Shown here piece by piece: positions 23,008 to 31,012 of a DNA stretch of 41,394 nucleotides. Each line of letters begins with the position of its first letter. The stretch's first letter is position 1. The translations under genes and the position numbers were made by a program. The DNA is taken from assembly GCA_016842065.1 (NCBI GenBank), contig JAEPDS010000033.1, positions 1 through 41,394 of the forward strand, read 5' to 3'. This DNA is from Candidatus Thiodiazotropha sp. 'RUGA' (GTDB lineage: Bacteria; Pseudomonadota; Gammaproteobacteria; Chromatiales; Chromatiaceae). Below the pieces are notes generated by a model that saw only the letters and a list, made by a program, of their open reading frames with translations, had not been told where the DNA came from and searched no databases.

Positions 23008-23376
23008 ATGGTGATGCAAGGCGAAAAGAATATTGGGCTGCGGCGATTGATCAACGCAATGCGCTGGTCAATGAAGGGATTTCGATCTACCTATAAGAAC
23101 GAGGAGGCCTTTCGTCAGGAGGTGCTGCTTGTGATCATCCTCGCTCCTCTGGGGCTCTGGCTGGGTGACACTGGTATTGAAAAGGCACTGCTGGTAGGGC
23201 CGTTACTGATCGTGCTGATCGTGGAGCTGGTGAACAGTGCGATCGAAAGCGTGGTGGACCGCATCAGCACCGATAAGCATAAGCTCTCCGGGCGGGCCAA
23301 GGATCAGGGTTCGGCCGCTGTGCTGGTATCGTTGATGCTGGTGGCGTTATGCTGGGTTACGGTGCTGTTTTTCTGA
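23008..23376 (+). CDS. dgkA: Diacylglycerol kinase DgkA
   Basis: A three-helix integral inner-membrane kinase that phosphorylates diacylglycerol to phosphatidic acid with ATP, recycling lipid from envelope glycan synthesis. The 122 residues align with the E. coli enzyme. The catalytic and metal residues are conserved: Glu32 in NEEAFRQE, Glu73, Asn76 and Glu80 in IVELVNSAIE, Asp84 in VVDRIS, and Asp99 in SGRAKDQGSAAV. ATG 23008 has AAGGAG at 7 bases. It is followed after 46 bases by the Nudix gene that leads the phosphoryl-transfer cluster, and could share its promoter. Confidence 0.96.
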   Translation: MVMQGEKNIGLRRLINAMRWSMKGFRSTYKNEEAFRQEVLLVIILAPLGLWLGDTGIEKALLVGPLLIVLIVELVNSAIESVVDRISTDKHKLSGRAKDQGSAAVLVSLMLVALCWVTVLFF

Positions 23377-23422: not shown

Positions 23423-23911
23423 ATGAGACAGGCGAGTGAATTGACAGGCCTGGACGCCAATATCCGAAATGCTGTGCGTGCAGTGATTGTGCGTGATGAA
23501 GCGATCTTGATGCAGAAAAAATGGCAGCAGGAGAGAGGCTTCTGGTACACCTTGCCTGGCGGTGGCCAAGAGGTGCAGGAGAGCTTGACCCAAGCCCTGC
23601 AGAGAGAGTGCGAAGAGGAGATCGGTACCCGTGTGGTGGTGGATGGCCTGTTGGCGGTCGCCGACTTCTACAAACAACGCAGAACCGAGCCACCCACGAG
23701 CCGCCATCTGATTGAGTTTCTGTTCGCCTGTTCCGTTCCGGATGACTATCTACCCGGCCCTGGAGCTCATCCCGATAAACACCAGATCGAGGTGGTATGG
23801 CTGCCGTTTGCCGAGTTTTCTCAGGTCGAGCTTTTTCCGAAAAGTCTTGAGCGCGATCTGCAGCCGGTGGTGCAAGGTGCAAAACCGCTCTATCTGGGAG
23901 TGATTGACTGA
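23423..23911 (+). CDS. Nudix hydrolase
   Basis: A 162-residue cytosolic Nudix pyrophosphohydrolase. The Nudix box G-x5-E-x7-R-E-x2-E-E-x-G is complete: GGQEVQE near residue 48, then RECEEEIG near 62. The segment RHLIEFLFAC and the long loop with HPDKHQIEVVWLPF resemble ADP-sugar/nucleotide-type members, but the substrate is not predictable. Its TGA is one base before the ATG of the PhoU-kinase gene, so it is probably the first gene of the coupled cluster that follows. Confidence 0.9.
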   Translation: MRQASELTGLDANIRNAVRAVIVRDEAILMQKKWQQERGFWYTLPGGGQEVQESLTQALQRECEEEIGTRVVVDGLLAVADFYKQRRTEPPTSRHLIEFLFACSVPDDYLPGPGAHPDKHQIEVVWLPFAEFSQVELFPKSLERDLQPVVQGAKPLYLGVID

Positions 23912-23912
23912 G

Positions 23913-25547
23913 ATGTCCCTACCGAAAGCGATTAATGACAATCTACAATTCCTGCTTGCAGAAACAGCCTCGCATCTGAGTCTGCTTCGGGACTATCTTG
24001 CGGCAACCACCAACACGCCATCATCCCGACTGCTCGATCGCAAAGGCTATGTGGAAAATCTGCGTTTGAGCATTCACAACCACTGCCTGTCGGAGCACGC
24101 TGCGGCAGACAATCAGAGTGGCAGCAAGCAGCTGTTACGAGCGGTAGAAGATGTGGCCACCCACCTGGAACGGATCACCGAACTGAGTCGGGAGGCGATG
24201 CTGCAGTCCCTGCAGGTGGAACAGAAGCGCCTGTTGAAGCGGGGTAAGTATCTGCCCATGCTGAGTCGGGTATTGAAGGCTCTGGAGATAATCGAGCCGG
24301 CGCTGGCGGACAAGGACACCCGTCGAGCATTGAAAATTGGCCGGGTGGAACAGCGTCTCGATCAGGCCTATCAAAAACAGTTGTTGAGCTACTCGAAGCA
24401 TCTGAAGAAAGTTAACCATCCGGCGGATCATATCGCCCTGATCATGTTGGGCCGTAACATCGAGCAGATGGGTAATGCCTTGCTGCGCATCAGTGAAGCA
24501 ATCATCTCGGCAGCCATGGGGCAGCACTTCAGTACCGATCGCTACCACACATTGAATGCCTCACTGACGGAACTGAAGGCGGTGAATGAGATGGAGGGTC
24601 TGCACGTGCAGACCATCGCCCAGACCAAATCCGGCAGTGCCATCAATGCGGTGGCCAGTACCGGTGAGCCTGGCTATCACGGGGTATTCAAGGATGGGGG
24701 TAAACGCAAACTCAAGGAGGAGAAGCAAAGGGTTAACGACTGGCATGAGATATTTCCCGGTCTGGCGCCGAAAATCCTGGCCTATAAAAAAAGCGGTAAT
24801 TCAGCAGCGATGCTGATCGAACATCTGGCCGGACAGACCTTCGAGCAGATTCTGCTGAGTGGTTCCGATAAGCTGTTTCAGGAGTGCTTTACCCATCTCA
24901 CCGGGACTTTGAAACAGGTGTGGGATGAGACCCGAACCGGCAAACCGGTCTCAGCCAACTATATGGATCAGCTCGCCAAACGTATGGATGATGTGTATGC
25001 CATACATCCGGAATTCAAACAGAACAATATGGCTATCGGCAGCCGGAAGCTGCCTTCATTCGGCAAGCTGCTGACGCGGGTTCAGCAGCTTGAAGCTGAT
25101 ATCCAGGCACCGTTCTCAGTCTATATCCACGGCGATTTCAACGTCGATAACATTATCTACGATAAACAGCAGAAACGGATCAATTTTATCGACCTGCACC
25201 GTTCCCGTTATATGGACTATCTGCAGGACATCACGGTCTTCATGGTTTCGAACTACCGTCTGCAGGTGTTCGACCCGAGGGTGCGTCAGCGGATTGCCAT
25301 CATCAGTCATGGCATCTACCGCTTTGCCCGAGGCTATGCGAAAAAGGTCAAGGATGAGAACTTCGAGCTTAGGCTGGCACTCGGCCTGATACGCTCCTTC
25401 GTCACTTCGACCCGGTTTATTCTTGATAAATCTCTCTCCAGAGCGATGTTCTACCGGGCGCTCTATCTGATGGAGCAGCTGCTGGCGGCAAACGCCAAAT
25501 CCAAACGTCGTTTTAAAGTACCCATAGAGGAGATATTCATTGGTTAA
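23913..25547 (+). CDS. PhoU-like domain fused to aminoglycoside-phosphotransferase-like kinase
   Basis: A 544-residue cytosolic fusion. The first about 210 residues are helical, with two PhoU-type segments (LLRAVEDVATHLERITEL near 75-95 and GRNIEQMGNALLRISEAI near 180-197) that place acidic metal-binding-like residues as in PhoU. The C-terminal half is a protein-kinase-like phosphotransferase fold: AMLIEHLAGQTFEQIL near 305, the catalytic loop HGDFNVDNIIYD near 410 with the APH HGDxxxxN pattern, and INFIDLHRSRYMDY with the metal-binding Asp. The substrate is unknown. I chose ATG 23913, one base after the upstream stop. It is the second gene of the cluster and overlaps the ATP-grasp gene by 8 bases. 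Confidence 0.8.
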   Translation: MSLPKAINDNLQFLLAETASHLSLLRDYLAATTNTPSSRLLDRKGYVENLRLSIHNHCLSEHAAADNQSGSKQLLRAVEDVATHLERITELSREAMLQSLQVEQKRLLKRGKYLPMLSRVLKALEIIEPALADKDTRRALKIGRVEQRLDQAYQKQLLSYSKHLKKVNHPADHIALIMLGRNIEQMGNALLRISEAIISAAMGQHFSTDRYHTLNASLTELKAVNEMEGLHVQTIAQTKSGSAINAVASTGEPGYHGVFKDGGKRKLKEEKQRVNDWHEIFPGLAPKILAYKKSGNSAAMLIEHLAGQTFEQILLSGSDKLFQECFTHLTGTLKQVWDETRTGKPVSANYMDQLAKRMDDVYAIHPEFKQNNMAIGSRKLPSFGKLLTRVQQLEADIQAPFSVYIHGDFNVDNIIYDKQQKRINFIDLHRSRYMDYLQDITVFMVSNYRLQVFDPRVRQRIAIISHGIYRFARGYAKKVKDENFELRLALGLIRSFVTSTRFILDKSLSRAMFYRALYLMEQLLAANAKSKRRFKVPIEEIFIG

Positions 25548-26430
25548 ACCTAAGATCGGGGTTGTCGGTATACCCGGTAAATGGTCGACGGAAGTATTGG
25601 CCGATGCGGTGGCTGAGGCGACCGGTTACCGGCTGGTGATCGACATGGCCGAAGTGACCGCCGAGCTGGACAGCGGCAGACTGCTCTATCGGGGTGAGGA
25701 TCTTACCCAGCTCGATGCACTGCTGGTGAAAAAGATCAGCGCGCAGTACAGTCCTCACACACTCGACAGGCTGGAGATGCTGCGACAACTGGAGCTGGCC
25801 GGGGTGCGGGTATTCAGTCGGGTTGAGCGGATCATCCGCCTGATCGATCGGCTCAGCTGTACCATGTCCCTCTACAATGCCCGGATCCCCATGCCGGAGA
25901 CCCGTGTCACTGAGGATCCCGAGGCAGCCGCTCAGGCAGTCGAGGCGTTTCAGGCGGCTGTGTTCAAGCCTCTCTACTCCACAAAAGCTCGGGGTATGAC
26001 TCTGATCGAGCATCAGAGCGGTCCTGAGCAGGTGGCCAAACAGATTGCCGAATTCCGCGAGCAGAATCCGGTCATGTATATCCAGAAGAAGCGGGAACTG
26101 CCGGGTAAGGATCTGGGGATGGTATTTCTGGCCGGGGAATATCTGGGTGCTTATGCCCGGGTGGGCAAAAAAGGCGTCTGGAACACCACCATTCTGAGTG
26201 GCGGACACTATGAGGGTTATCAGGCGAGCGAAGAGCTGATCGAATTGGCCCGACGGGCGCAGGCGGTTTTCGGCCTTGATTTCACCACGGTGGATGTGGC
26301 TGAGACGGATCAGGGACCGGTAGTCTTCGAGGTCTCCGCCTTCGGTGGATTCCGCGGCGCCCACGAAGGGATGGGAATCGATGTGCCAACCCGTTATGTT
26401 GCCCATGTTATGGAGGCTTTATCAGCGTGA
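25540..26430 (+). CDS. ATP-grasp enzyme, GAK-system/RimK-like
   Basis: A 296-residue ATP-grasp ligase. The lysine strand FKPLYSTKARGM (near residue 145), YIQKKRELPGKDLGMVFL, GAYARVG and the last strand VVFEVSAFGGFRGAH are visible. Such enzymes form amide or thioester bonds through an acylphosphate. The Asn normally following the terminal Glu-Val (EVN) is Ser here, which may alter metal binding. The start is TTG 25540, supported by GAGGAG 7 bases upstream and an 8-base overlap with the PhoU-kinase gene. A GTGA overlap joins it to the HprK-related kinase, the pairing that I recall as defining the so-called GAK system. Confidence 0.8.
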   Translation: MVKPKIGVVGIPGKWSTEVLADAVAEATGYRLVIDMAEVTAELDSGRLLYRGEDLTQLDALLVKKISAQYSPHTLDRLEMLRQLELAGVRVFSRVERIIRLIDRLSCTMSLYNARIPMPETRVTEDPEAAAQAVEAFQAAVFKPLYSTKARGMTLIEHQSGPEQVAKQIAEFREQNPVMYIQKKRELPGKDLGMVFLAGEYLGAYARVGKKGVWNTTILSGGHYEGYQASEELIELARRAQAVFGLDFTTVDVAETDQGPVVFEVSAFGGFRGAHEGMGIDVPTRYVAHVMEALSA

Positions 26431-27551
26431 ATCAATCAGCAGATGATTACCAACAGATGCAGAGCAAAACCGCAGCGACCCTATTGATTCAGGGGCAGGC
26501 CCTGAGTGAGACCCCGCTCTATCTGAATCTGGGCGAGTTGAGCGTCGCCATCAAGTCGAACAGCTGGCAACTGCTGAGCCGCTTGGCTGACTATTTTGCT
26601 CACCTGCCGCAACAGCCAGCCGATGGTGCTGTGGAGATTGTCGCCATTGAGAGCGATGTGTTGGAGACCGATATCCAGTTTTCAGATTGGAAGCGGGAAC
26701 CGGGAAAGACCGGCCGCAAGGATGCCTATCTGGAGCTGCCCGATGGTCGTCTGATTCTTAAGGTTCGTACCGGCATGCTGTTTCTGCAGAGCAAGCATCA
26801 CTGTGTTGCGGCGGGACCCTGTCTGACCTATGACAATCAACTGGTCAATTTCATCAACTCCCAGATCATGAACTGGTTGCAGAACCGGGATTGGCTGATC
26901 TGTCACGCTGCCGCACTGATGTTGGGAGACAATGCTGTGGCAGTCGCCGGCTTTTCCGGTGGTGGCAAGTCGACTTTGATGCTGCATCTGATGGAGCATC
27001 CAGAGAGCCGTTTCCTGACCAATGATCGGCTCTTTTTGCGCGAATCGAACCAGCTTGTCGAGGCTGTCGGCATCCCCAAGCTGCCCCGCATCAATCCCGG
27101 TACGGTGGTCAATAACCCACGCCTGCAGGCACTCATCGAGGAGCCTCGCCGCAGTGAGCTGTTGGCGATGCCGAAACAGGCGTTGTGGGAGCTGGAAGAG
27201 AAGTTCGATGTGGATGTGGAACAGCTCTACGGCAAGGGGCGCATCGATACCTCGACAGCGGTGCCTTTGGCCGGGCTGATTATCCTCAACTGGCACCGGG
27301 ACTCTGACCAGCCGGTGAGCATGAGCCAGGTATCAATCAGTGGCAGAGAGGAGCTGTTGAAAGCGGTAATGAAGTCCCCGGGACCTTTCTATCAGGATCG
27401 ATCAGGCCACTTTCTGCAGGATGAAGCACCGTTGGCCACAGATCCCTACCTGGCAATATTGGATAGAATCCCTGTCTATGAGGTGTCTGGCGGATTGGAT
27501 TTTACCGCTTTGAGCGAACTCTGTTTCGCTAAATGGGGCGGCAGACCCTAG
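26427..27551 (+). CDS. HprK-related P-loop kinase (type B-like)
   Basis: A 374-residue protein with a C-terminal HPr-kinase-like domain. The P-loop GFSGGGKST lies near residue 175, preceded by ICHAAALMLGDNAVAVA. FLTNDRLFL near 198 stands where HPr kinase has its catalytic acidic pair, and GIPKLPRINPGT near 218 is characteristic of HprK-related proteins and not of true HprK. The N-terminal about 150 residues are a separate alpha/beta domain of unknown role. The window has no HPr or PTS gene, so the phosphoacceptor is unknown. It starts at GTG 26427, four bases overlapping the ATP-grasp stop. Confidence 0.82.
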   Translation: MNQSADDYQQMQSKTAATLLIQGQALSETPLYLNLGELSVAIKSNSWQLLSRLADYFAHLPQQPADGAVEIVAIESDVLETDIQFSDWKREPGKTGRKDAYLELPDGRLILKVRTGMLFLQSKHHCVAAGPCLTYDNQLVNFINSQIMNWLQNRDWLICHAAALMLGDNAVAVAGFSGGGKSTLMLHLMEHPESRFLTNDRLFLRESNQLVEAVGIPKLPRINPGTVVNNPRLQALIEEPRRSELLAMPKQALWELEEKFDVDVEQLYGKGRIDTSTAVPLAGLIILNWHRDSDQPVSMSQVSISGREELLKAVMKSPGPFYQDRSGHFLQDEAPLATDPYLAILDRIPVYEVSGGLDFTALSELCFAKWGGRP

Positions 27552-27652
27552 TGTTGAATGCTATGGGCAGGTCAGTTTTAACGGTGGTATGCAGAACATC
27601 ACCTTCAAGTGGTTTAGAGAAGAGATAACAGGCCCTAAGAGGTAGAGAGACG

Positions 27653-28633
27653 ATGGCACGTGAATTGTTGTTACTCAGGCATGGAAAGTCTGACTGGAGT
27701 GAACAGGTAGAGGACTTTAAGCGTCCTCTCAAGGATCGTGGCAAACGGGGTGCGCAACGCATCGGCGTCTGGTTGCTGCAAAATCAGCTTCAGCCCGATT
27801 ATGTAGTCAGTTCTCCTGCCGAGCGAGCCATCGTCACGGCACAGAAGTCGGTCAAGGTGATGGGGCAGGACGCCGACAAGATCACCCAGGATCGACGCAT
27901 CTATGCAGCCAGGGTCGAAGACCTGCTGAAGGTGCTTGCCGATGCGCCCAAGAGCGCCAAGCGGGTGCTGATGGTTGGCCATAATCCCGGTCTCGAAGCC
28001 CTGGCTGAGTATCTGGAGGGTAAGCGGATCCCCTTACCAAAGGATGGCAAACTGATCCCCACCGCAACCCTGGCCAGAATCAGTATGCCCAATGACTGGA
28101 AAAAACTGCGTCCGGGGGATGGTAAGTTGGATTCCATAACCCGTGCCAGCAGTCTGGATAAGAAATTCCCTTTTCCGAATCACTCCAGCAAGGAGATGCG
28201 TGATCGTCCTGCCTACTACTACAATCAATCTTCTGTGATTCCCTATCGTATCAAGGACAGTAAGCCGGAGATCCTGCTGGTCCGGTCCAGTAAACAGAAA
28301 CACTGGGTGGTGCCGAAGGGTATCAGTGAGCCTTGGCTGACCCTGCAGGCATCCGCAGCAAAAGAGGCATTTGAAGAGGCCGGTGTGGAAGGTGATGTGG
28401 GAAGTGATAGTCTCGGCAGCTATAAATATGAGAAATGGGGTTCCGAGTGTTCAGTTCAGGTCTATCCCATGCAGGTCAAAAGAGTGATTCCGGAAGATGA
28501 GTGGGAAGAGCGTCATCGGGGTCGCGAGTGGCTCCCGCCAGATAAGGCGATTGAGCGCATCAAACAGGCTGAATTGAAACCGATGATCAAACAACTGGCA
28601 AAAATGGTTGAAAAGAAGAAACCCAAAAAGTGA
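27653..28633 (+). CDS. SixA-type histidine phosphatase fused to a Nudix domain
   Basis: A 326-residue two-domain cytosolic enzyme. Residues 1-150 are a SixA-like phosphohistidine phosphatase with LLRHGKSDW (catalytic His10), VVSSPAERAIVTA and MVGHNPGLE (His110). Residues about 195-320 form a Nudix domain whose box is atypical: WVVPKGISEPWLTLQ then AAKEAFEEAGVEG, with Leu at the first Glu position and Lys for Arg, while the catalytic Glu residues of the E-x2-EE core remain. The domain order is the reverse of mycobacterial MutT1. A Lys-rich tail ends the protein. It follows the HprK-related gene after 101 bases, so it may begin a second transcript or simply continue the operon. Confidence 0.88.
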   Translation: MARELLLLRHGKSDWSEQVEDFKRPLKDRGKRGAQRIGVWLLQNQLQPDYVVSSPAERAIVTAQKSVKVMGQDADKITQDRRIYAARVEDLLKVLADAPKSAKRVLMVGHNPGLEALAEYLEGKRIPLPKDGKLIPTATLARISMPNDWKKLRPGDGKLDSITRASSLDKKFPFPNHSSKEMRDRPAYYYNQSSVIPYRIKDSKPEILLVRSSKQKHWVVPKGISEPWLTLQASAAKEAFEEAGVEGDVGSDSLGSYKYEKWGSECSVQVYPMQVKRVIPEDEWEERHRGREWLPPDKAIERIKQAELKPMIKQLAKMVEKKKPKK

Positions 28634-28678
28634 TGAAGCGCATACCGTTCCGTTTTACGCCATCTGGATTGATATCCA

Positions 28679-29383
28679 ATGCCTAGTGTCATTGCGGCTC
28701 TTTTAAGGCATGGAGACTATCATCAGCTGAAGGATACCCCCAGTGCCTGGCAACCCTTTCCTCTGAATGAAGAGGGACGCCAACAGGCGAGACGCTCTGT
28801 CACGCTGCTGAGTGGAGCATTGCAGATGTTTGACTGGGATCTCTGTCCAGTGATCGACAGTTCCAATCTGTTGCGTGGCTGGCAAACCGCAGAAGCGATC
28901 CGCCAGGGCTTCAGCGACACAACCTCATCATCATTATCGATCGAGGGCTTTGATGCGCTGGCCGAACGCAGTATGGGATCTGCGGCAAACCTGACTCGGC
29001 AGACCATCGAATCGATTCTTAAGGATGATCCGCGTTTTGAAGAACCACCGGCCGACTGGAAGTCGAACAGTCACTATCAACTCCCTTTGCAGGGTGCTGA
29101 ATCGTTGATGCAGGCGGGTGTCAGGGTGGCCCGCCATCTGGATCATCGGCTGGCCGAACTACAGCAGCAGGTCGATACCGATACCGTCAAACTTTTTGTC
29201 GGTCATGGTGCGGCATTTCGCCATGCCGCTCACCATCTGGGCGTATTGGAATTCGATCAGATTGCGGCTCTGAGCATGTACCACTGTCGACCGATTTTTC
29301 TTGAGCGCCGCTATGCAGGATCCTGGCGTCATCTAACCGGGGAATGGAAGGTCCGCTCACGAGGAGAGGCATTTGTCGATTAG
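28679..29383 (+). CDS. Histidine phosphatase superfamily protein
   Basis: A 234-residue phosphoglycerate-mutase-like phosphatase. The catalytic RHG motif is near the N-terminus (ALLRHGDY, His11), LNEEGRQQAR follows, and the second His lies in FVGHGAAFRHAAHHLG near residue 178. The Glu of the LAERSMGSA segment near 97 would be the acid. The substrate could be a phosphoprotein or small phosphoester. It begins 45 bases after the SixA-Nudix gene, and its last 11 bases overlap the metallophosphatase gene. Confidence 0.87.
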   Translation: MPSVIAALLRHGDYHQLKDTPSAWQPFPLNEEGRQQARRSVTLLSGALQMFDWDLCPVIDSSNLLRGWQTAEAIRQGFSDTTSSSLSIEGFDALAERSMGSAANLTRQTIESILKDDPRFEEPPADWKSNSHYQLPLQGAESLMQAGVRVARHLDHRLAELQQQVDTDTVKLFVGHGAAFRHAAHHLGVLEFDQIAALSMYHCRPIFLERRYAGSWRHLTGEWKVRSRGEAFVD

Positions 29384-30740
29384 CGCCGATAACAAAACCG
29401 ATAAGTATCATCATAAACGACTCCCAAAATATCGGGGGCTGAAGTGGATCAAGCCGGAACTGCCCACATCCAGTGAACTCTGGCCGCTTGGCAAGCACCG
29501 TTCCATCGTCAAGGAGCGTGGCCAACGAAGTAGCACAGAGTTTCTGCTGACCGAAGTGTTGGATAAGGATAAGTGGCAATGGCCAAAGCGGGAGCTGTTC
29601 TTCTTTTCAGATCTGCACGCGGATGCGGATGCCTTCATCTCCTCACTGGTCGCCTCCGGCGGGGTAAGGAAAACCGGCGAACAGGATAGCGACCTGAAGT
29701 TGACCCGTCGTGGCAGAGAGGCCAGCTTTGTGATCGGCGGGGACTGTTTTGACAAGGGGCCAAGCAATCTGCGGGTATTAAGGGTCATCCGTCAGTTAAA
29801 AAAGCTGGGAGCGAAGATCACCATCCTGGCAGGCAATCACGATATTCGCATCAAATTGGGCATCTCTTCGGTCGGTATGGAGCCTGATCCGAGGCACGAT
29901 CACTTCTTTATTCGTATGGGCAGTAAGGCGGTTCCGATGTTGCGTGAAATCGCCGACCAGTATCTGCAGGACAGATCCGCTTTGAAGGGGGTCCCTTCAA
30001 GCCGTGACTGTCGACGCCTGCTCTACCCGCCGAAGCGCTGGTTCAAGGAGTTTCCCAAGATGGCGAGCTGGGTCATGCCGGACAATCGCATGGCCAGAGA
30101 GCTGAAACGGCTGAGAGAGAAGATCGATTCATTCGAATCGGATTGTGAGAAGGCCGGCCTGTCACTGCGCCAGGTCTATGCAGCGGTACTCATATGGCAG
30201 AGCCTGTTTCTCAAGCCCGACGGCGAGTTCAGCTGGTTCTTCAAGGAGATGAAACTGGCGATTCATCAGGGCTCTTTCCTGTTTGTCCACGCCGGCATCG
30301 ACGATAGGATGGCAAAGCTGATCAATCGCAAAGGGGTCAAGTATCTCAACAAACAGTTCAAGGAGGATGTGGATGATGAGATTTTTGAATTCTATTATGG
30401 TCCGTTGGCCAATCTGATCAGGACCAAGTATCGGGATGTGGATATGCCGCTGACGAGTAAAGGGGTCAGACTGATGAATGAAGTGGGTATCTATGCGATC
30501 GTGCATGGGCATGCCAATCGCTATCATGGTCAACGAATCATGTTACGCAAGGGCATGCTCAACTTTGAGTGCGATACAACCATCGATCGGCACTCACGCA
30601 AAAAAGAGGGCTTGAAAGGGGAGGGTGCGGCCGTGACCATATTTCATCCTGATCGACTGGTGTTTGGGATCAGTACCGACTACCCGCAGATCAAAGTGTT
30701 CGATCCGAAATCAATCATCGTCAAGAGAAAAAGCTCATGA
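29373..30740 (+). CDS. PPP/ApaH-like metallophosphoesterase
   Basis: A 455-residue cytosolic metal-dependent phosphatase. The motifs in order are SDLHAD near residue 78, GGDCFDKG near 122, AGNHDIR near 153, LFVHAGID near 306 and VHGHANRYHG near 378. These give the full His/Asp/Asn set of the PPP-like calcineurin fold (as in ApaH and PrpE). It is larger than ApaH because of a basic N-terminal extension (1-75) and a helical insertion (about 190-300). The start is TTG 29373 with GAGGAG 6 bases upstream, overlapping the previous gene by 11 bases; the end overlaps the next gene by ATGA. The substrate is unknown. Confidence 0.87.
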   Translation: MSISADNKTDKYHHKRLPKYRGLKWIKPELPTSSELWPLGKHRSIVKERGQRSSTEFLLTEVLDKDKWQWPKRELFFFSDLHADADAFISSLVASGGVRKTGEQDSDLKLTRRGREASFVIGGDCFDKGPSNLRVLRVIRQLKKLGAKITILAGNHDIRIKLGISSVGMEPDPRHDHFFIRMGSKAVPMLREIADQYLQDRSALKGVPSSRDCRRLLYPPKRWFKEFPKMASWVMPDNRMARELKRLREKIDSFESDCEKAGLSLRQVYAAVLIWQSLFLKPDGEFSWFFKEMKLAIHQGSFLFVHAGIDDRMAKLINRKGVKYLNKQFKEDVDDEIFEFYYGPLANLIRTKYRDVDMPLTSKGVRLMNEVGIYAIVHGHANRYHGQRIMLRKGMLNFECDTTIDRHSRKKEGLKGEGAAVTIFHPDRLVFGISTDYPQIKVFDPKSIIVKRKSS

Positions 30741-31012
30741 GGCAAGGCAAAAAGAGTTTTCGACATGAATCCCTGCAGGATTGTGCCTCTATAGAGCGCC
30801 TGTTGAAATCGATCACCCAGGGTATCGGTAAAGGCAGTCTGGTACTCAGTGATGATGAGGATGAGATGGAGTTGAAGCCCGACGGCTTGCTGCAGCTCAA
30901 AGTGACTGCATCGCAGGATTCGGAAAAGCACCGGCTGAGTCTGAGAATCACCTGGACCGCAGCCGACAGTAAAGGGATCAAACAGAAAAAGCTCAAGGTC
31001 AAATCGGATTGA
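30737..31012 (+). CDS. Amphi-Trp domain-like small protein
   Basis: A 91-residue, charged cytosolic protein with the layout of the amphi-Trp family: an N-terminal helix (SLQDCASIERLLKSITQGIGKG), a strand SLVLSDDEDEMEL, then LLQLKVTAS and a terminal strand LSLRITWTAAD with the single Trp, followed by a Lys-rich tail. The family function is unknown, and I recall it being defined near HprK-related/ATP-grasp genes. It is the last gene of the cluster, coupled by an ATGA overlap. Its many Ser/Thr residues and small size make it a possible target of the kinases, which is inference only. Confidence 0.6.
   Translation: MRQGKKSFRHESLQDCASIERLLKSITQGIGKGSLVLSDDEDEMELKPDGLLQLKVTASQDSEKHRLSLRITWTAADSKGIKQKKLKVKSD

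Follow-up and report, generated by a model that had tools for sequence, protein, structure and literature searches.

A conserved eight-gene extension of the GAK system and its links to phosphate genes and PhoB boxes

Introduction

What is written and erased by an operon that sets a PhoU-kinase fusion, an ATP-grasp enzyme and an HprK-related kinase beside several hydrolases, and is it connected with phosphate? The question is raised by a window of 41,394 nt (the whole stretch of DNA analysed here) from Candidatus Thiodiazotropha sp. 'RUGA' (JAEPDS010000033.1), in which eight ORFs, all on the + strand, occupy positions 23423-31012. The computations described here identify the protein families, a conserved unit, catalytic motifs in most of its members, and phosphate or polyphosphate neighbours and PhoB boxes in several lineages. 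The phosphate link of the GAK unit is new here.

Organization of the locus

The initial annotation described eight same-strand ORFs and their junctions, and recomputed coordinates and domain calls bear this out. The junctions are +1, -8, -4, +101, +45, -11 and -4, the first of which is obtained with the second gene (P) started at the ATG at 23913. The features are as follows.

23423..23911, + strand: Nudix hydrolase (N), an accessory member; PF00293, 61.9 bits
23913..25547, + strand: PhoU-domain/APH-kinase fusion (P); PDB profile match and PF01895
25540..26430, + strand: GAK-system ATP-grasp enzyme (G); TIGR04356, 428.5 bits
26427..27551, + strand: HprK-related kinase B (K), predicted PEPCK/HprK fold; TIGR04355, 333.8 bits
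27653..28633, + strand: SixA-like phosphatase/DIPP-like Nudix fusion (S), an accessory member; PDB relatives of both halves
28679..29383, + strand: histidine phosphatase, PGAM-like (H); His_Phos_1, 60.6 bits
29373..30740, + strand: PPP/ApaH-like metallophosphatase (M), a calcineurin-like phosphoesterase; PF00149, 31.3 bits
30737..31012, + strand: amphi-Trp domain protein (a); TIGR04354, 65.2 bits
31315..31333, + strand: terminator-like hairpin 3' of the last gene; consensus match only

The hairpin is weak evidence, because the region holds 11 such terminator-like sites where shuffled sequences average 7.6. A dagK-like gene (23008-23376, + strand) ends 46 bp 5' of the cluster; it has no match in the 15 relative loci compared, a set that includes three short contig ends.

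Conservation and distribution

The unit is found in Gamma- and Alphaproteobacteria and in two Planctomycetota, mostly in marine bacteria. Relatives numbered 498, of which 80 were kept. The 95 loci compared reduce to 91 distinct ones on removal of four duplicate pairs (L032/L103, L033/L034, L051/L055 and L082/L097), and 53 of these (56 before de-duplication) are full loci, with at least 3.5 kb upstream and at least 6.5 kb downstream of the ATP-grasp gene. All eight genes are present in 29 of the 53 and the gene order is kept in 49. P occurs in every full locus, the amphi-Trp gene in 50, M in 49, H in 48, S in 41 and N in 34. Pseudomonadota loci with 29-61% protein identity to the window show the same set in the same order, and such recurrence across diverged loci is more than chance. 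Among 398 Pseudomonadota genomes, K was found in 14 of the 14 that bear G (Fisher 5e-24), and the ATP-grasp and kinase genes always occur together save at two contig ends. A comparison of neighbourhoods, which had been proposed as a check on the cluster, thus finds the genes travelling together far beyond close relatives.

The distribution is patchy, and plasmid-borne copies occur in Rhodobacterales, a pattern that would suit an anti-phage defence or other conflict system. That reading is nevertheless very improbable: the sole PADLOC match is the Nudix protein (PDC-S07, 38.2 bits), 21 of 22 listed genomes from its own genus carry the operon, and the unit has the phosphate links described below.

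Membership of the GAK families

Three of the eight proteins exceed the cut-offs of NCBIfam families, namely G (TIGR04356; cut-off 300), K (TIGR04355; cut-off 200) and, at the same locus, the amphi-Trp protein (TIGR04354; cut-off 31). These are the families that the initial annotation had named without database searches, and the CofD relative that it suggested looking for elsewhere is also present in this genome: a protein encoded at G000:C8:171142-172245, unlinked to the cluster, passes TIGR04357 with 529.2 bits (cut-off 340). TIGR04355, TIGR04356 and TIGR04357 are 'hypothetical equivalog' families in NCBIfam, and the literature searched yielded no paper naming the GAK system or giving any of the three a function.

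The CofD relative raises the possibility of a cofactor-like biosynthesis, in which it would act with an MptN/CofF-like ligase to give a phosphodiester- or glutamyl-tailed compound. A TIGR04357-type gene lies near the GAK operon in 31 of the 91 distinct loci, and among NCBIfam models MptN ranks second for G (149.9 bits, cut-off 350). The CofD relative is, however, present in only five of the 14 G-bearing genomes in the sample of 398 and occurs once without G and K (G006), and four hydrolases fit poorly in a one-way pathway, so that a biosynthetic role of this kind seems unlikely.

The PhoU-kinase, ATP-grasp enzyme and HprK-like kinase

P joins two domains. Residues 9-225 match the solved PhoU protein 4q25 over most of the PhoU domain length (E 3.3e-8, profile against PDB), and the protein also matches PF01895 (27.4 bits, cut-off 23.5); residues 269-446 match APH(3') in the same kind of comparison. 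Residues H409, D411, N416 and D430 are kept in 90 of 92 rows, the other two having gaps.

Of the ten PDB profile matches of G, nine carry labels of RimK/LysX-type ligases and the tenth that of an acetylornithine deacetylase, and G lies below the curated cut-off of the RimK family TIGR00768 (102.3 of 143.4 bits). Residues K143-P144, S147-A150 and G152-M153 are kept in 93 of 93 GAK rows.

K has a predicted HprK-type C-terminal kinase fold, with the P-loop residues K181-S182 in 87 of 88 rows (one gap), and the basic residues R90, K98, R108 and K112 are invariant in 58 kinases. For the chain as a whole the prediction is a PEPCK-like architecture around this HprK-like core, so that K need not be a protein kinase. 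Another reading is a reversible protein modification, in which a protein, perhaps the amphi-Trp protein, would receive an amino acid from the ATP-grasp enzyme and a phosphate from HprK-B, and the phosphatases would reverse this. We give this reading about one chance in four.

The hydrolases

The Nudix-box residues E53, R61, E62, E65 and E66 of N are found in 58 of 58 relatives. In H, R10-H11 is present in 79 of 80 rows (one gap) and H176 in all 80. M has ApaH as a weak PDB relative (E 0.0016), and its residues D80, H82, D124, D127, N155, H156, H306 and H380 are present in 73-76 of 77 rows, the rest being gaps. The best PDB relatives of the two halves of S are the SixA-labelled 4hbz and DIPP entries. 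The catalytic histidine of the SixA domain is intact in the window and is present in 62 of 73 rows, with glutamine in eight. Tested against GX5EX7REUXEEXGU, the Nudix box of S keeps E238, E241 and E242, and its arginine is often lysine; the GX5E glutamate is absent, the window having leucine there and no glutamate being among the residues listed at that position. A serine pair (S212 in 63 and S213 in 67 of 71 rows) and an RxR-W motif (R289 and R291 in 68 of 69) are conserved in the same domain. The initial annotation counted three writers and four erasers, which is fair as a description by fold; as a count of activities it is weakened by the loss of the SixA histidine in some relatives, by the S Nudix box and by the possibility that K is no protein kinase.

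A further possible reading is a small-molecule signal: the operon would form and break down a small molecule that is pyrophosphorylated or bears many phosphate groups, comparable in bacteria to the inositol-pyrophosphate messenger of phosphate status, with DIPP-type and histidine-phosphatase erasers. The DIPP-like domain of S with its serine pair and RxR-W motif is consistent with this, as are the predicted PEPCK-like architecture and invariant basic residues of K, and the phosphate-gene neighbourhood and PhoB boxes. On the other hand, domain scans of the eight proteins (E 0.1) recovered no inositol-phosphate kinase family, and neither these scans nor the PDB matches of the ATP-grasp profile include a kinase of the PPIP5K/IP6K type, although such an absence is no proof; the labels of those matches, save one, point to ligases, and the S Nudix box departs from the standard motif. 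We regard such a signal as a minority possibility, at about a quarter.

Phosphate genes near the operon

A gene for a CHAD protein, a Na/Pi symporter, PPK1, PhoU or PstS flanks 21 of the 91 distinct loci (22 of 95 before de-duplication), compared with one of 60 control stretches for any of the five families (Fisher 1e-4), with the reservation that GAK flanks were the source of the flank HMMs and the loci are not independent. CHAD domains are described as binding polyphosphate (PMC6537752). By family, the 91 loci give 12 for the Na/Pi symporter, 11 for CHAD, seven for PstS, five for PhoU and four for PPK1; chance would give about 0.2 each for CHAD and Na/Pi, judging from four CHAD and five Na/Pi genes in about 31.6 Mb of seven GAK genomes. 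The control zero for Na/Pi is uninformative because Na/Pi genes are absent from all three control genomes; a CHAD gene is present in just one of the three. No phosphate-family gene flanks the other 70 distinct loci, many of which are short contigs, nor is any of the five families found among the ten flanking proteins scanned in the window. Nine further loci were fetched, four of them duplicates, and none of the five new ones has a flanking phosphate-family gene.

PhoB boxes

Upstream regions were compared with the PhoB box consensus CTGTCAT-N4-CTGTCAT at a threshold of at least 11/14. The initial scan covered both strands with simple shuffles; later scans were run on the forward strand, with dinucleotide shuffles. 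The motif is present upstream of eight of 60 operons, reduced by similarity from 83 regions, versus six of 460 control ORFs, which were left unreduced (Fisher 3e-5). In the culturable Marinobacter xestospongiae (L118) the operon is preceded by a 12/14 match. It is present in one of 21 CofD upstream regions, reduced from 32. In one genus, picked for footprinting since it gave the best box match, the motif is found upstream in 24 of 35 species, versus one of 166 ORFs from a single genome of that genus and 1.8% of shuffled sequences; the other 11 species have no box at this threshold. The genus scan covered 35 of 36 positive genomes, G142 (=L042) being left out and G158 (=L043) kept. Among the 24 box-anchored rows, box identity is 0.73, a figure that the anchoring itself inflates, and in an unanchored alignment of all 35 species the box is, by eye, the most conserved intergenic stretch. 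The operon of the window has no box, the best matches being 8/14 before the Nudix gene and 10/14 before dagK. The phosphate connection guessed at in the initial annotation gains support from the PhoU domain, the flanking genes and the boxes in relatives.

A possible phosphate-linked phosphorylation module

Our preferred reading, to which we give roughly even odds, is that the cluster is a phosphorylation module of the write/erase type linked to phosphate status, that is, an extended 'GAK system' carried on a mobile operon. The PhoU domain of P would sense phosphate status, either directly or via the Pst/PhoR apparatus, and would control the fused APH-type kinase. This kinase, the RimK-like ATP-grasp enzyme and the PEPCK/HprK-like kinase may jointly make a single phosphorylated, anionic product, which the DIPP-type Nudix domain, the PGAM-type and PPP-type phosphatases and the free Nudix protein would degrade; the amphi-Trp protein could be a carrier or binding protein. 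A more specific and more speculative proposal, which we rank somewhat below the general idea of a small-molecule signal, is a new type of bacterial phosphate signalling: the PhoU-gated kinase, ATP-grasp enzyme and PEPCK/HprK-like kinase would make a pyrophosphorylated messenger under PhoB control in some lineages, and DIPP-, PGAM- and PPP-type hydrolases would clear it, in parallel with the eukaryotic control of phosphate and polyphosphate by inositol pyrophosphates.

Families that have names but, in the literature searched, no published function are here joined into an eight-gene unit that is tied to phosphate and polyphosphate genes as well as to PhoB boxes. An unexplained annotation becomes a question testable in culturable marine bacteria: does the operon respond to phosphate, and what is the phosphorylation target? 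An answer of either kind, a novel phosphate messenger or a novel reversible protein modification, would be unexpected.

Comparison with known systems

The unit has its closest known counterpart in the GAK system of NCBIfam, all four models of which (TIGR04354, TIGR04355, TIGR04356 and TIGR04357) exceed their cut-offs in this genome, but it is larger, since the PhoU-APH fusion, SixA-Nudix fusion, histidine phosphatase, PPP phosphatase and free Nudix protein match no GAK-named model. G resembles RimK/MptN/LysX ligases in that its profile matches are near full-length, although all 93 GAK rows show FEVSAFGG (263-270) at the place of EVNASPG in the aligned RimK. K differs from HPr kinase/phosphorylase and PEPCK in that no HprK is among its 29 PDB sequence matches (E 1), and no HPr gene is among the eight. 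The DIPP/DDP1 Nudix hydrolases are the nearest solved relatives of the S Nudix domain, which differs from them in being joined to a SixA-like domain and in its missing GX5E glutamate; the yeast relative DDP1 is described as cleaving the pyrophosphates of inositides, dinucleotides and polyphosphate (PMC8064635). The Streptomyces ppk-pptA(CHAD)-nudix operon is described as PhoR/PhoP-controlled and as encoding a polyphosphate kinase, a CHAD protein and a Nudix hydrolase (PMC8003754). The passages describing it name no ATP-grasp, HprK-like or PhoU-kinase gene. Some GAK loci share with the Streptomyces operon the placing of CHAD and PPK1 genes beside Nudix genes.

Family assignment and genomic setting

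The operon lies on the plus strand of the window and comprises, in order, the following genes.

23423-31012, + strand: eight-gene operon N-P-G-K-S-H-M-a
N: Nudix protein
P: PhoU/APH-kinase fusion
G (25540-26430): ATP-grasp protein
K: HprK-related kinase B
S: fusion of SixA-like and DIPP-like Nudix domains
H: histidine phosphatase
M: PPP-like metallophosphatase
a: amphi-Trp protein

The eight ORFs and their junctions had been read from the sequence in the initial annotation and are confirmed by ORF coordinates in the window. Three families named there proved correct, each scoring over its NCBIfam cut-off: TIGR04356 (ATP-grasp), TIGR04355 (HprK-related kinase B) and TIGR04354 (amphi-Trp). These matches place the locus in the GAK system. 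The proposed check for a CofD-related gene elsewhere turned up a TIGR04357 CofD-like protein, the fourth GAK-named NCBIfam family, which is encoded on another contig of the same 4.77 Mb assembly (G000, of which the window is contig C33); the other genes are not beside it. The window ATP-grasp protein finds its nearest named-record matches in Ca. T. endoloripes (98%), the gamma symbiont from Stewartia floridana (98%), Ca. Thiodiazotropha taylori (97%) and one Chromatiales MAG (95%). The RimK motif EVNASPG is replaced in aligned GAK ATP-grasp proteins by EVSAFGG, which alters a metal-binding position.

Together with a dagK-like gene, the operon sits between a minus-strand mutS-glycosyltransferase-metallophosphatase run and downstream genes for CinA, LigT, LysR, MFS, RecA, AlaS and an aspartokinase-like protein (17747-41224). 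Its position between these two runs is possibly an insertion point.

Conservation and distribution of the gene set

Among 398 Pseudomonadota genomes, the ATP-grasp model matched 14 at E 1e-60 and the kinase model exceeded its cut-off in 14, with two more fragments below cut-off (genomes G033 and G184); the many weaker kinase matches are short P-loop stretches. The kinase or its fragment accompanies the ATP-grasp gene in 14 of 14 genomes, and the only genomes in which the kinase occurs without it are G140 and G184, whose contigs begin just before or inside the kinase gene. CofD was detected at E 1e-60 in six of the 398 genomes, five of which have the ATP-grasp gene.

Neighbourhoods were compared at 95 loci, 80 named (the best 80 of 498 relatives) and 15 unnamed; removal of duplicates (four pairs) left 91 distinct loci, 53 of them with enough flank. 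The order N-P-G-K-S-H-M-a recurs among these loci, and the neighbourhood tabulation proposed in the initial annotation indicates that the set travels together, since all eight genes are present in 29 of the 53 loci and the order is kept in 49 (the exceptions being L108, L111, L115 and L116). Ten of the 29 complete loci are Thiodiazotropha-type and three are from Thalassospira. Individual genes are present in the 53 loci as follows: P 53, K 52, a 50, M 49, H 48, S 41 and N 34. Median gaps, with ORF starts taken as the longest possible, are -8 (P-G), -4 (G-K), -11 (H-M) and -1 (M-a). Seven of the eight genes are also present on two contigs from Planctomycetota: L105 (Stieleria) is without N, and L126 (Rhodopirellula), whose contig stops ~4 kb beyond G, is without a. 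Locus L123, from a Methylomonas MAG, has the PhoU-APH and ATP-grasp genes only, a pair that is a possible minimal form of the GAK system. Three other loci (L120, L121 and L124) have N-P-G-K-S-a, without nearby histidine phosphatase and PPP genes.

Distribution of the ATP-grasp gene is patchy, as expected of mobile genes. Among the genomes listed it is present in 21 of 22 from the same genus, and it occurs in 43 of 195 from the same order, 36 of 48 from another family and 1 of 48 from the order of genome G014. The cluster is also found on plasmids of Qingshengfaniella, Pseudooceanicola and Tritonibacter. Locus L079, labelled as a Halobacteria archaeon, is a GAK island with PstS, PhoU, CHAD and CofD that resembles gammaproteobacterial L078, and is probably a mislabelled or contaminated MAG.

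Phosphate and polyphosphate genes near GAK loci

Flanking ORFs were clustered, and domain searches on ten representatives identified GAK-type CofD, CHAD, Na/Pi symporter, PPK1, PhoU and PstS, as well as, among others, a ParA-like protein, CNNM and a further histidine phosphatase. HMMs built from the GAK flanks themselves were run on the 95 loci, 1.53 Mb in all, with 60 control stretches of 20 kb (1.2 Mb), taken at even spacing from three GAK genomes, for comparison.

Occurrence of flank families (95 GAK loci; 60 controls; 91 distinct loci)
CofD: 32; 0; 31
CHAD: 11; 0; 11
Na/Pi symporter: 13; 0; 12
PstS: 7; 0; 7
PhoU: 5; 0; 5
PPK1: 4; 1; 4

At least one of CHAD, Na/Pi symporter, PstS, PhoU and PPK1 is present at 21 of the 91 distinct loci versus 1 of 60 controls (Fisher 1e-4), the loci not being independent: the CHAD genes come from roughly five lineages and the Na/Pi genes from roughly six, as grouped by organism label. 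The comparison calls for caution, as the HMMs derive from GAK flanks and the three control genomes have, genome-wide, zero Na/Pi genes and one CHAD gene. At the densities of seven GAK genomes (~31.6 Mb summed, with four CHAD and five Na/Pi genes), ~0.2 CHAD and ~0.2 Na/Pi genes would be expected by chance. In L067, L068 and L078, the GAK operon shares a single island with PhoU and/or PstS, CHAD, CofD, PPK1 and a further histidine phosphatase; in L067 and L068 a Na/Pi symporter belongs to it as well.

The outcome of a later flank check was mixed. Nine more GAK loci comprised four duplicates and five new ones without any of the five phosphate families, and genome G006 (locus L249), with neither an ATP-grasp match at E 1e-60 nor a kinase over cut-off, has a CofD-like GAK gene with a Na/Pi symporter ~0.6 kb off. 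A ParA-like ATPase gene (e.g., L078:2557-3495) occurs at 10 of the 95 GAK loci versus 0 of 60 controls, and nine of those 10 loci also have a CHAD gene.

PhoB boxes upstream of the operon

Because phosphate and polyphosphate genes were found in GAK flanks, upstream regions were searched for the Pho (PhoB) box, the consensus of which is CTGTCAT-N4-CTGTCAT (scored out of 14). Among 60 deduplicated regions, a box of at least 11/14 is present in 8, versus 6 of 460 control ORFs (Fisher 3e-5), and one of at least 12/14 in 4, versus 2 of 460 (Fisher 2e-3). In the footprinted genus, which was chosen for its best box match and of whose 35 species one (G158) was already in the first scan, 24 species have a box of at least 11/14 and 19 of at least 12/14; a score of at least 11 is reached by 1 of 166 control ORFs from G158 and by 1.8% of dinucleotide-shuffled sequences. 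Between-species identity in the 24 box-anchored rows is 73% in the box, a value raised by anchoring on the box itself, versus 32% in the 40 bp before and 52% in the 40 bp after; in an unanchored alignment of all 35 species the box likewise stands out, by eye, as the best-conserved part of the intergenic region. The consensus 3' of the box includes TATAGT. The upstream scan found no such box at the window's own operon.

Proposed role and comparison with known systems

A role for the GAK operon in phosphate or polyphosphate homeostasis would fit the PhoU-fused kinase, the PhoB boxes in some lineages and the nearby Na/Pi, Pst and polyphosphate genes in others, and is the firmest part of the proposed reading. 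The constant gene set suggests that three ATP-using enzymes would write on one product and that four hydrolases would erase that same product. A small molecule is a tentative candidate for this product, and a modified protein is an equally tentative one.

A search of mostly open-access literature found neither the GAK system by name nor a description of this gene set. Four features are new as far as checked: the extended GAK membership, a predicted PEPCK-like architecture of kinase K, the phosphate- and polyphosphate-related genes nearby, and a PhoB box conserved among relatives.

DDP1, a yeast relative of DIPPs, has inositides, dinucleotides and polyphosphate as its substrates, and its Arg152 is described as essential and absent from MutT1 (PMC8064635). 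In alignment with DIPP, S keeps Arg at both positions of the RxR-W motif, either of which may be the counterpart of DDP1 Arg152. Polyphosphate binding is a property of CHAD proteins (PMC6537752), and Streptomyces has ppk, a CHAD protein gene and a Nudix hydrolase gene in one operon controlled by PhoR/PhoP (PMC8003754).
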